Part shown: positions 4,245 through 51,776 of the stretch, piece after piece
Numbering within the stretch: the stretch's first letter is position 1
How the letters are laid out: every line of letters begins with the position of its first letter
Assembly: GCF_003721435.2 (NCBI RefSeq)
Contig: NZ_CP054585.1
Location: forward strand, 1,922,001 to 1,986,000
From: Halorubrum sp. CBA1229
Lineage (GTDB): Archaea; Halobacteriota; Halobacteria; Halobacteriales; Haloferacaceae
Length of the DNA stretch: 64,000 bases
Direction of reading: 5' to 3'
Notes under the pieces: model-generated
The model's database searches: none
Seen by the model: the letters and a program-made list of their open reading frames with translations, nothing else
What the model was told of the DNA's origin: nothing
Translations under genes and position numbers: made by a program

Positions 4245-4638
4245 TTATAAATAGTTGACTGGAGGTCGTCAGAGAACACCTCCAAAGCCCCAGCCGCTCG
4301 GTTGTAAGCGACTGACCGCGAATCGACGGGGGACACACCTCCAAAGCCCCAGCCGCGAGGCGGCCGCACGCTCGCTGTGCTCCTCAGTCGCTCACTTCGT
4401 TCGCTCCCTGCGGTGCTTACGTCGCCTGCGGCCGCCTCGCGGCTGCCCCTTTGAGTCCCGCCCGACCGCACCGCAACCGCACCTCACACCTCCCCAGCCT
4501 CGCGGTTCGTTCGGGGCTCCCTGCGGTCGCCCCTCACTCACCGCTTCCCTCGCACGTGCCGTTCGCGGCCTGTCGGCCGCTCACGGGCGCGCGCCACCGC
4601 GACAGTAACGCGTCGCCGCGATCTGTATTTATAAATAA
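4245..4638 (+). repeat. Dispersed structured intergenic element, copy R1
   Basis: This fills most of the 570-base gap between the acyltransferase and DJ-1 genes. Reading 5' to 3': TTATAAATA at 4245; box CCTCCAAAGCCCCAGCCG twice (about 4279 and 4339); stem H1 with perfect 18-base arms at 4350-4367 and 4428-4445; the conserved string GGCTGCCCCTTTGAGTCCC from 4441; CCGCAACCGCACCTCA and CTCCCCAGCC; a weak variable hairpin; a GCGGCC/GGCCGC hairpin near 4566; and ATTTATAAAT at 4627-4636. The same order occurs in three other intergenic places (22466, 44791, 51427). It has no conserved reading frame. It could be a structured RNA family or a non-autonomous mobile element. Confidence 0.85.
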
Positions 4639-22465: not shown

Positions 22466-22799
22466 ATTTATAAATGAACGAGGCGGTCGGCGCGTGCCTC
22501 CGAGGCCGCCCCGCGGCCGAGGAGCGCGCGCGAGGGACGCGGCGACCGGAGGGAGCCGCGAGGCTGGGGAGGGGTGAGGCGCGGTTGCGGTGCGGGGTGG
22601 GACTCAAAGGGGCAGCCCGAGGCGGGCGCAGGCGACGAAAGCAGCGTGTCGCTACGCGCCACGGGCAGCCGGCGGCGGAGCCGCCGGCGACACCGCAGCG
22701 AAGGGGCGATAGCGACTGAGCGAGGAGCGCAGCAAGCGTGCGCCCGCCTCGCGGCTGGGGCTTTGGGAGTGTTCGCCGCCGTCTCGTTCTCAACTATCT
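22466..22799 (-). repeat. Dispersed structured intergenic element, copy R2 (interrupted)
   Basis: Read on the minus strand it matches R1: H1 arms at 22739-22757 and 22613-22630, the CCTTTGAGTCCC string, CACCCCTCCCCAGCCTCG and the GC-rich terminal hairpin, ending at ATTTATAAAT (22466-22475). The H1 loop carries an extra perfect hairpin, GCCGGCGGC/GCCGCCGGC, at about 22668-22688. The copy breaks off at 22799, where the AT-rich island starts, and resumes at 25449 with TTATAAG and the second box. It is therefore split by an insertion. Confidence 0.8.
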
Positions 22800-22982: not shown

Positions 22983-24986
22983 TTAGAATCTCTCTCGATT
23001 GCTGAAAATATATCCTAGTGTAATGAGTGAGAGCGTCCCAAGAAATGCTTGGAGCATCACTACTATTTGAAGCAACATCCCAGTTGGTCGGAATGGGGGA
23101 GTCGTAGTGAAAGTAACCACACTATACGAGATCGTACGGACAAAACTATCCTCGATTCCTACTAACAAATAAATAACAGTTGGGAGAAAAAACAAACCTG
23201 CCATCCATTTACCGAGTTGGCTGGGTCGAACACCATAACCAGTGAGTTTCTCTGAGGCAAGACTCCCCATGTGGTCTTTACTGAACCGACCTTTAGTTTC
23301 TCTTAATTCGATACGACGTAAACGACGCTCATGGACATGGAACCTCCGAGCCTTGCTGACTAATCCATGATTGGCAAACGCGGATTTGAGATCGTGGTAT
23401 GCCCGCGCGGTCGCATCCAGAGCGCTAGGCAAAAAGTTAGAACTCTCAAAGAGCCGCGTGCATTCTGTAGATCCGTCAACTGCGACGTTCGACAGTTTTG
23501 CATTTTGTAAATTAGCTTTTGATAGTCTAGCGCCCCTGAGATTTGCCTCATTCAGGTTAGCGTTCCTGAGATTCGCTCCGATTAGATTGGCGGCTTTGAG
23601 ATTTGTGCGAGTCAGATCAGCACCTCTAAGATTTGTCTTGATCAGATCAGAACCACTTAGATTCACATCGGATAGTTTAGATTTACTGAGGTCCTTGCCA
23701 CTCAGGTCGGCATCTCCGAGATTTGCTCCGGTCAAGTCGGTGTTTTTGAGGTCCAAGTTTGACAAATCGAAACTATCAATAAATTCGTCGGAGGGTCCCG
23801 ATAGATCAACAGATGTTTCCTCCAGTTCAGCCCCGCTGAGATTCACCTCTGATAAATTAACACCGTCGAACGATGCTTCTGTTAGGTTTGAGTCACTAAG
23901 ATCTGCCCCCGCCATCTCGGAACCGTTGAGGCATGCTCCGGTCAGATCGGATTCACAAAGATTCACATCGGTCAGGTCTGCGTCGGATAAATCTGCTTCT
24001 GTTAGATTGGTTCTGTAGAGGGACGCGCTGGTTAGCTCAGCAAATGTAAGATCCGAGTTAGATAGATTGGAATACCGGAGATCAGCTTTTGACAGATCAG
24101 CGTGATTGAGTTTTGCTTCTGAAATATCAGCACCTCTGAGATCTACACCAGACATATCTGCGTAGTCAAGGTCAGCTCCGGATAGGTTGACACCTCTTAG
24201 ATCCTCGCCGGCTAGGTCAACGACATCGAGATCTGCTCCCGATAGATCAGCATCCTTGAGCTCTACTTCCGACAGGTTGACCCCGTCAAGCGACGCTTTA
24301 GATAGGTTTGATTTGCTGAGATTTGTTTCTGATACCTCGGCTTCGTTGAGGGATGCTTTAGTTAGATTAGAGTCAGTTAGGTTCGTATCTGTTAGATCAG
24401 TATGAGATAGATCAGCCTGTGACAGATTAGCTTTATACAGCGACGCGTCAACTAAGACGGCCTCACTTAGATTCGCACCACCTAGGTTGGCATATCGGAG
24501 GTCTACACCTGTCAGGTCTGTATTTCTCAAGTCCGCTCCTGACAGGTCAGCACCCCTCAAATCCGCATTATACAAGTCGCCTTTTCTGAGACTTCCATTT
24601 GATAGATTGGCGCCTCTGAGGTCTGCGTCGCGCAAGTTAGCAGTTGAGAGATCCGAATCAGTCAAATCAGCGTTTCGGAGAGATGCCTGATAAAATGAGA
24701 TAGAATCCTGAAGTTCATTTCCAGCCAATATAGCTCCATCAAGTAATTCACCTCCTAAACGAATCTTGTCTTGTACTTCAGGGATGATTTTTGACTGTTT
24801 GAATTCCTCAATTGTTTTTGAATCAACTGCTTCAGGCTGTAAGTGCCACACACATCTCTCCGTATTCCCAACTGTATCACGGTAACAGCAGCTCTGATTT
24901 TTTGGGTCGTCACCGACTTCATATTCCTCAGGCCAAGTATAGCCACACTTATTTTCAGATTCTTCCCCCATACGTAGCTGATACAC
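22983..24986 (-). CDS. Pentapeptide-repeat protein with Cys-rich N-terminus and channel-like C-terminus
   Basis: 667 residues from the ATG at 24986; the ATG at 24971 is an equal candidate. Residues 14-48 hold CGYTWPEEY, a CC pair and CVWH, a possible metal site (C14, C33, C34, C45, H48) that I associate with haloarchaeal pentapeptide proteins. Residues about 95-495 are continuous A(D/N)Lxx repeats forming a right-handed beta-helix. The end has two membrane helices (about 585-605 and 635-660) around SYSVVTFTTTPPFRPTG, laid out like a two-helix K+ channel pore, but with TPPFRP in place of the GYGD filter. Codon use is AT-rich, unlike all neighbours, which indicates transfer. Function unknown. 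Confidence 0.85.
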   Translation of the reverse strand: MYQLRMGEESENKCGYTWPEEYEVGDDPKNQSCCYRDTVGNTERCVWHLQPEAVDSKTIEEFKQSKIIPEVQDKIRLGGELLDGAILAGNELQDSISFYQASLRNADLTDSDLSTANLRDADLRGANLSNGSLRKGDLYNADLRGADLSGADLRNTDLTGVDLRYANLGGANLSEAVLVDASLYKANLSQADLSHTDLTDTNLTDSNLTKASLNEAEVSETNLSKSNLSKASLDGVNLSEVELKDADLSGADLDVVDLAGEDLRGVNLSGADLDYADMSGVDLRGADISEAKLNHADLSKADLRYSNLSNSDLTFAELTSASLYRTNLTEADLSDADLTDVNLCESDLTGACLNGSEMAGADLSDSNLTEASFDGVNLSEVNLSGAELEETSVDLSGPSDEFIDSFDLSNLDLKNTDLTGANLGDADLSGKDLSKSKLSDVNLSGSDLIKTNLRGADLTRTNLKAANLIGANLRNANLNEANLRGARLSKANLQNAKLSNVAVDGSTECTRLFESSNFLPSALDATARAYHDLKSAFANHGLVSKARRFHVHERRLRRIELRETKGRFSKDHMGSLASEKLTGYGVRPSQLGKWMAGLFFLPTVIYLLVGIEDSFVRTISYSVVTFTTTPPFRPTGMLLQIVVMLQAFLGTLSLITLGYIFSNRERF

Positions 24987-44790: not shown

Positions 44791-45115
44791 TTTATAAATA
44801 ACAGCGGTGGCGCGCCTGCGAGCGGCCGCCACCGGCGGCCGCGAGCCAGCCCGCGAGGGAGTCGGACCGGCGCAGCCGCGCCGGTCCGACGAGGCTGGGG
44901 AGGGGTGAGGTGCGGTGCTGTGCGGTCGGGTGGGATTCAAAGGGGCAGTCGCGAGGACGGCGCAGGCGACCCAAGCACTGGAGGGAGTGAGCGAAGCGAA
45001 CGACCGAAGCGCGCAGCGAGCGTGCGCCGTCCTCGCGGCTGGGGCTTTGGAGGTGTTTGCCGTCGAGTCGGTATCGGTCGTTTATAAACGAGCGGCTGGG
45101 GCGTTAGAGGCGTTT
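44791..45115 (-). repeat. Dispersed structured intergenic element, copy R3
   Basis: This fills the gap 44717-45174. Read on the minus strand it follows R1: second box AGCGGCTGGGGC at 45091, TTTATAAA at 45081-45088, H1 arms at 45023-45041 and 44946-44964, then TTTGAATCCC and CACCCCTCCCCAGCC, a perfect 13-base hairpin with a 4-base loop at 44861-44890 (H2), a GCGGCCGCC/GGCGGCCGC hairpin at 44823-44843 (H3), and GCGCGCCACCGCTGTTATTTATAAA ending at 44791 in two parts. It is upstream of pdaD and downstream of pan. Confidence 0.85.
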
Positions 45116-51426: not shown

Positions 51427-51776
51427 TTTATAAATCGGTGACGCGGTGAACTCTTCCAAAGCTCCAGCCGTGAGGCTATGCGTCGTTGTCGGCGAAGTGA
51501 CGGCGAACACCTCCAAAGCCCCAGCCGTGAGGCGGGCGCACGCTCGCTGCGCTCCTCGGTCGCTCGCGCTGCTCGCTCCCTACGGTGCTTGCGTCGCCTG
51601 CGCCCGCCTCACGGCTGCCCCTTTGAGTCCCGCCCCACACAGCACCGCAACCGCACCTCAGACCTCCCCAGCCTCGTCGGCCGGCCTCCGCTTCGCTCCG
51701 ACCGGCCGACTCCCTCGCGCGCGCTGCTCGCGGCCGATGGCCGCTCGCAGGCACGCGCCACCGCAGTTATTTAAAT
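51427..51776 (+). repeat. Dispersed structured intergenic element, copy R4
   Basis: This fills most of the gap 51386-51935. TTTATAAAT at 51427; box CTTCCAAAGCTCCAGCCG then CCTCCAAAGCCCCAGCCG (about 51453 and 51511); H1 with perfect 19-base arms at 51522-51540 and 51599-51617; CCCCTTTGAGTCCC; CCGCAACCGCACCTCA; H2 arms GTCGGCCGG (51676-51684) and CCGGCCGAC (51702-51710); H3 GCGGCC-GAT-GGCCGC near 51729; GCGCCACCGC and TTATTTAAAT at 51767. A further TTTATAAAT lies at 51802-51810. It sits between two genes on the plus strand. Confidence 0.85.

Follow-up and report, generated by a model that had tools for sequence, protein, structure and literature searches.

The compensating changes among copies of a haloarchaeal repeat exceed phylogenetic expectation, and the fold of one of its strands, the G-rich one, is what is under selection. 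The repeat lies in the window, a stretch of 64,000 nucleotides of Halorubrum sp. CBA1229 (contig NZ_CP054585.1, positions 1,922,001 to 1,986,000) with four copies, R1 to R4 (Table 1). In our reading, each would be a copy of a structured element of Halobacteriales that is old, multicopy and intergenic and in which the selected trait is the fold of the single G-rich strand, and the element is probably an unrecognised RNA or mobile element. Selection for pairing had been proposed from the four window copies, and the proposal held up, with covariation significant against a tree-based null both in Halorubrum and in other genera.

The window copies and the anatomy of the element

Direct reading bore out the original prediction for R4, whose arms in the large hairpin H1 are perfectly complementary over 19 bp; for R1 (4338-4460), which has the C/G change and the CGGCCGC/GCGGCCG pairing; and for R3 (minus strand, about 45051-44932), in which GAGGACGG pairs with CCGTCCTC. 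R2 (minus strand, 22767-22656) is a copy, as claimed, but its right arm (CCTCGGGCTG) has a 2-base deletion. The single C-A opposition in R3 (CAGCC vs GACTG), on the strand originally read, is a U-G wobble on the opposite strand. Since the left-end motif occurs six times in the window and not once in 100 dinucleotide shuffles, chance origin of these repeats is excluded. Folded as RNA, R4 beat 200 of 200 shuffles on both strands (z of -5.4 for minus and -3.6 for plus), and as single-stranded DNA it also folded beyond all shuffles on both strands. The same pairing pattern holds across 312 copies, almost all of them in Halorubrum, and across 47 distinct H1 domains of other genera.

Table 1. Features of the repeat copies in the window; strand is that of the G-rich sequence.
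Feature	Position	Strand	Evidence or remark
R4 H1 domain; its G-rich strand carries GGGACT, the CAAAG/CTTTG outer helix, the GGG/GGG internal loop, a helix of 19 bp and an apical part rich in GA	51512..51631	- (G-rich)	Covariance model 117.5 bits, E 2.1e-21; fold
R4 H1 arm CAGCCGTGAGGCGGGCGCA	51522..51540		Read directly; arm of inverted repeat I2
R4 opposite H1 arm TGCGCCCGCCTCACGGCTG	51599..51617		Read directly; arm of inverted repeat I2
R4 outer H1 arm CAAAG with one side of the internal loop (CCC, plus strand)	51514..51521		Outer-arm conservation across copies
R4 other side of the internal loop (CCC) with outer arm CTTTG	51618..51625		Outer-arm conservation across copies
R4 H2 hairpin, GTCGGCCGGYC arms	51676..51710	-	One minus-strand G-U wobble, 51685 opposite 51701
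R4 H3 hairpin, CGAG/CGAG tandem G-A internal loop	51717..51758	-	Minus-strand U-G wobble, 51722 opposite 51753
R4 AT box TTATTTAAAT beside H3	51767..51776		Counted as part of the element by its fixed spacing
R4 left flank	51427..51508		AT box TTTATAAAT at 51427-51435, plus a degenerate unit of 57 bp
Partial copy of the H1 end in the 57-bp unit of the R4 left flank	51453..51476		Tandem repeats of such units in other copies
R1 H1 domain	4340..4459	-	Covariance model 121 bits, E 4.4e-22
R2 H1 domain; partial degradation, with a further hairpin in its loop	22656..22767	+	Covariance model 44.7 bits, E 4.5e-7
R3 H1 domain	44932..45051	+	Covariance model 107 bits, E 2.5e-19
R3 site			PAN gene on one side, pyruvoyl-dependent arginine decarboxylase gene on the other; 27 species compared at the orthologous site

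The Halorubrum element is about 260 nt long and, read 5' to 3' on the G-rich strand, consists of two hairpins, H3 and H2, an unpaired linker and H1 (in detail: H3, GAGGGAGTC, H2, GAGGCTGGGGAGG with a variable linker, GGGACT, H1). In H1 itself, an outer 5-bp helix is followed by a GGG/GGG internal loop and a helix of about 19 bp; in the apical part, G-A oppositions are interspersed among short helices. The outer helix is CAAAG/CTTTG in 273 of 312 copies and CGAAG/CTTCG in 20 of 312; outside Halorubrum it is GAAAG/CTTTC, such that the outermost pair is G-C there and C-G in Halorubrum. AT boxes (TTTATAAA-like), where present, stand at a constant distance from the element on either side: on the H3 side, 124 of 283 copies have one, 83 of these at 5-8 nt from GCGGTGGCGC, and on the H1 side 142 copies have one, 94 at 31 nt from CTTTG. 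Many copies also carry, on the H1 side, tandem 57-bp units that repeat the H1 end. GGAGGTG, conserved on the G-rich strand and read as CACCTCC on the opposite one, is identical in sequence to the Shine-Dalgarno/anti-Shine-Dalgarno motif; it is present at 51508-51514 of the window and in every 57-bp unit.

Some copies contain further hairpins. Four loci (L230, L317, L338 and L461) contain a nested two-hairpin module, GTGGTTCGAGA...TCTCGTCATCACGAAA...TTTCGAACGAC, found in Halorubrum and in another family; in L461, and in variant form in L087, it sits in the apical part of H1. Other nested GC-rich hairpins, for example CAGCGAGGCGC...GCGCCTCTGGCAGCCGGCGGC...GCCGCCGGCGACTG, have been inserted either within H1 or next to H2 (L058, L092, L098, L099 and the loop of R2 at about 22656-22690).

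Covariation in the stems

We aligned the stems by anchoring them at their base, since RNAalifold on a plain MAFFT alignment misaligned H2. The tree-based null was our own short implementation after the idea of R-scape, rather than R-scape itself, and lets columns evolve independently along the tree. Among 273 unique Halorubrum H1 hairpins, 13 of the 15 informative columns shared more mutual information with their true partner than with any other column. Against the tree-based null, five H1 pairs were significant at E 0.05, alongside one false pair. For the 44 distinct H1 domains taken from outside Halorubrum, the same null yielded 11 significant base pairs, all 11 of them true stem pairs. Across genera, 98.5% of cells were paired in a 37-sequence alignment, compared to 77.7% in shuffles, and both sides had changed in 8 of 11 pairs of this alignment. 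Moreover, inner pairs 1 to 12 each showed three or four Watson-Crick types, with 83-100% pairing, in the 47 distinct domains from outside Halorubrum. H1 stem sequences in other genera are quite different yet paired, while linkers and internal loop are constant.

Between Halorubrum hairpins at most 4 nt apart, 18 stem changes were compensated and 12 went from Watson-Crick to G-U, with none to A-C and none of any other kind. The helices drift through compensating changes and G-U intermediates, with the linkers, the GGG/GGG loop and the GA-rich apical part held constant. The original prediction had looked to the other two hairpins as well; covariation extended to H2, in which the true partner had the highest mutual information in 7 of 8 informative columns, but only weakly to H3, in which the outer pairs are nearly invariant and one pair clearly covaries. 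Copies within the Halorubrum sp. CBA1229 genome are about 80% alike, yet each is nearly perfectly paired, a pattern more in keeping with constraint on every copy than with insertions in decay.

The structured strand

The structured strand is the G-rich one (minus at R4), because G-U oppositions outnumber A-C on it and two pairs switch between Watson-Crick and tandem G-A. In the H1 and H2 stems of the 312 copies, the G-rich strand has 88 wobble cells and 28 A-C cells; in a separate count by hairpin, wobble to A-C stands at 35 to 6 in H1, 15 to 3 in H2 and 38 to 20 in H3, a count affected by register slips. At H1 pair 3 alone, U-G occurs 23 times and C-A three times, and R4 has minus-strand G-U pairs in both H2 and H3. 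The neighbouring pairs 13 and 14 switch between Watson-Crick and tandem G-A/A-G in 52 and 51 of 273 hairpins, and the G-rich strand folds as RNA with an energy 25-37 kcal/mol better than that of the C-rich strand. The wobble excess may be partly mutational, since C-to-T is commoner than G-to-A in the linkers of the G-rich strand, though those G's look constrained; the G-A pattern and the fold energies are independent of this bias. With the constraint lying on the G-rich strand, a symmetric cruciform is insufficient by itself.

Distribution and genomic context

In the Halorubrum sp. CBA1229 genome, a cut-off of E below 1e-50 gives at least 40 copies and a strict pattern gives 35; one congener has 75, and copy number ranges from a few to 75 per genome. 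All 52 Halorubrum congeners searched have the repeat. The matches listed for the core motif were in public contigs all named Halorubrum and in one unclassified haloarchaeal MAG. Restriction to this genus was nevertheless ruled out, since BLAST recovered diverged relatives in 17 further genera of the family and a covariance model of the H1 domain matched 303 of 391 Halobacteria genomes, in 71 of 86 genera; the strict pattern looked genus-restricted because it captured Halorubrum-specific stem sequence. In a phylum-wide sample, the matches listed all fell within the order of the window's genome. The element matched no family in Rfam 15 beyond chance matches, and its core sequences were not found in the openly accessible haloarchaeal papers searched; a prior description elsewhere is possible.

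Neighbouring genes, called heuristically from codon-position GC, were ordinary genes among those read. Of 106 flanks in Halorubrum, 70 have the 3' end of a gene towards the element (P = 0.0006), and outside this genus the orientations of flanking genes are even. Relative to tandem neighbours, the G-rich strand is sense in 9 cases and antisense in 15 in Halorubrum (10 and 9 in other genera); with no orientation preference, a sense-strand UTR element was rejected. Outside Halorubrum, H1 domains are often found in twos, and close H1 pairs are head-to-head in 15 of 15 cases. In these pairs the outer tips match (6.75 of 9 positions, compared to 4.83 when shuffled; 0 of 5000), forming a terminal inverted repeat, and the stems do not. 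Many such pairs have a spacer of 26-34 bp of the form ACCC...GGGT, and within a pair the 9-nt tips beyond both CTTTC ends match where the H1 stems differ (loci L403, L455, L457, L464, L466, L467, L470 and L471; genomes G172, G225, G255, G296 and G349).

Arm conversion, module exchange and turnover

Arm-to-arm gene conversion, which the original prediction had named as its alternative, or template switching would match the arms with no selection on pairing. Such events do happen on occasion: the internal loop of L028 has been converted to full pairing, and the H1 interior is inverted relative to the family in L114 and in G005:C31:158, G006:C63:97711, G007:C2:324498 and G010:C47:108542, so the arms do recombine with each other. 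As the main cause, however, conversion is very unlikely. The GGG/GGG loop survives in 306 of 312 copies, as it does outside Halorubrum, the tandem G-A oppositions are kept too, and single steps between near-identical hairpins are to G-U only. Because these non-complementary parts are retained, the arms are not routinely copied onto each other, and the retained internal loop already largely refutes this reading.

Exchange of whole hairpins between copies, by ectopic gene conversion, would spread matched arms and thereby mimic covariation. Orthologous copies with flanks 88-94% identical have hairpins no more alike than random copies, so that hairpins turn over faster than the flanking genes, and L117 and L118, whose flanks are 96-97% identical, have much of the outer H1 arms in common but not H2. 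Under exchange of this kind, every position in a hairpin would be linked to the rest, but the mutual information clusters on the true pairs and minimal pairs show single compensated pairs; it accounts for the spread of matched arms and not for their origin, and as the explanation of the covariation we consider it highly improbable. Probably, block exchange and compensated drift both contribute.

Whole modules, and whole elements, also come and go. Several copies show modular composition, with H1 lost, H2 exchanged or extra hairpins nested. Between the PAN and arginine decarboxylase genes, the element is present in 20 of 27 species (in two of them without H1) and the site is empty in the other 7, a state that can be clean among close relatives; at the cofG site, 15 of 18 resolvable species have the element or a remnant. 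Two loci, L097 and L105, are deletion derivatives without H1 that apparently arose by recombination between two CCCCAGCC direct repeats.

Structured RNA, mobile element or DNA site

What the data establish is selection for the fold of a single strand; they do not distinguish RNA from single-stranded DNA. We favour a structured RNA over a mobile element of the REPIN or PATE kind, based on diverged but individually intact copies, the lack of recent bursts and the G-A loops. In the favoured reading, to which as a whole we give an even chance from sequence comparison, the G-rich strand would act as RNA, from its own or read-through transcription, its constant unpaired parts might be recognised by a protein or ribonucleoprotein, and copies would spread rarely, swap hairpin modules by recombination and sometimes be lost. 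The covariation, the strand polarity and the better RNA fold of the G-rich strand all point this way, and the lack of an Rfam match is consistent with a new family. Against it, no promoter seems well placed for the G-rich strand: the H3-side AT box would start an RNA inside H3, and the H1-side box would be better placed for the C-rich strand. The absence of a preferred orientation with respect to neighbours in tandem argues against a role as a sense UTR element, the wide variation in copy number and the cleanly empty orthologous sites are as expected of mobile elements, and the C-to-T excess in linkers leaves part of the G-U preference open to a mutational account. The stronger proposal, a previously undescribed family of large structured RNAs, present throughout most of Halobacteriales as tens of diverged copies in each genome, each copy selected for its fold and acting through the GGG/GGG loop and the GA-rich apical domain, we put forward tentatively.

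A non-autonomous mobile element, whose single-stranded DNA hairpin is recognised by a transposase in trans (as REPINs are by RAYT, or PATEs by IS200/IS605 enzymes), would retain its fold because only foldable copies move. We regard this as a real but lesser possibility. It would account for the single-strand polarity, the multicopy intergenic positions enriched by gene 3' ends and between convergent genes, the presence and absence at one site among close relatives, the range of copy number, and the head-to-head pairs with their terminal inverted repeat, which resemble REP doublets. However, the IS200-type transposase (Pfam Y1_Tnp) was undetected in 11 of the 52 Halorubrum genomes, all of which bear the repeat, and a Y1 transposase was thus rejected as an obligate partner. 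Furthermore, no transposase adjoins the copies in three annotated plasmid regions, two genomes show no replichore strand bias, and near-identical recent copies are absent, with H1 inner parts more than 95% alike in only about 1% of own-genome pairs. A site acting in double-stranded DNA, as a cruciform or a protein-binding landmark for chromosome folding or transcription insulation, for example, seems improbable to us: the long inverted repeats, the AT boxes at fixed spacing, the position between convergent genes and the single-stranded DNA fold of R4, which beats all shuffles on both strands, would suit it, but a cruciform constrains both strands equally, and here G-U exceeds A-C, the G-A oppositions are all on the same strand and the internal loop sets GGG opposite GGG.

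Several known systems resemble the element in part. BOX elements of Streptococcus pneumoniae are likewise modular, multicopy, intergenic, strongly folded when transcribed and enriched between convergent genes (PMC3049150); compared by description, they differ in being bacterial and built of boxA, boxB and boxC modules, whereas the haloarchaeal H1 has a fixed GGG/GGG loop and covaries strongly, pair by pair, across genera. REPINs of the REP-RAYT system are inverted doublets that form hairpins, with compensating changes in the hairpin spacer, and are dispersed in extragenic DNA (PMC3116915), as the element is. Their REP ends, however, are nearly identical and tied to RAYT, whereas the arms of the element are highly diverse and a Y1 transposase is not consistently present; head-to-head pairs, which recall their doublets, occur outside Halorubrum, and Halorubrum copies instead have a single H1 with H2 and H3. 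The PATEs, MITEs and SMRs of Haloquadratum walsbyi are, like the element, transposase-free, palindromic, multicopy and haloarchaeal, but by description they are defined by transposon-related ends or near-terminal palindromes (PMC3119063). MITEs are marked by transposon-related terminal inverted repeats and a target-site duplication; the head-to-head pairs have a terminal inverted repeat, and empty and filled sites are too diverged for a duplication to be read. The IS200/IS605-associated omegaRNAs of Halobacteria are structured RNAs linked to mobile elements (RF02656, RF02657; PMC12558985), and the element, for which a structured RNA is also proposed, differs in matching neither family and in having no tnpB among the neighbours read.

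Halovirus HF2, a virus of Halorubrum, has intergenic repeats of 56-58 bp with AT boxes (PMC8707807), comparable in length to the 57-bp units. We rejected these as relatives, since the reported motifs (e.g., TCTTTAAGTC) differ, and no phage match to the element was found.

Should the fold be that of a functional RNA, most haloarchaea would have an unannotated structured RNA family with copy numbers that rival those of tRNA genes, whereas a mobile DNA hairpin would be an archaeal counterpart of REP and BOX repeats. In both cases, the polarity of the strand, the constancy of the internal loop and a ready covariance model make the choice between RNA and mobile element directly testable.

Apart from the repeats, the minus strand of the window at 22983-24986 encodes what, judged by eye, is a long pentapeptide-repeat-like protein with a C-terminal membrane segment.
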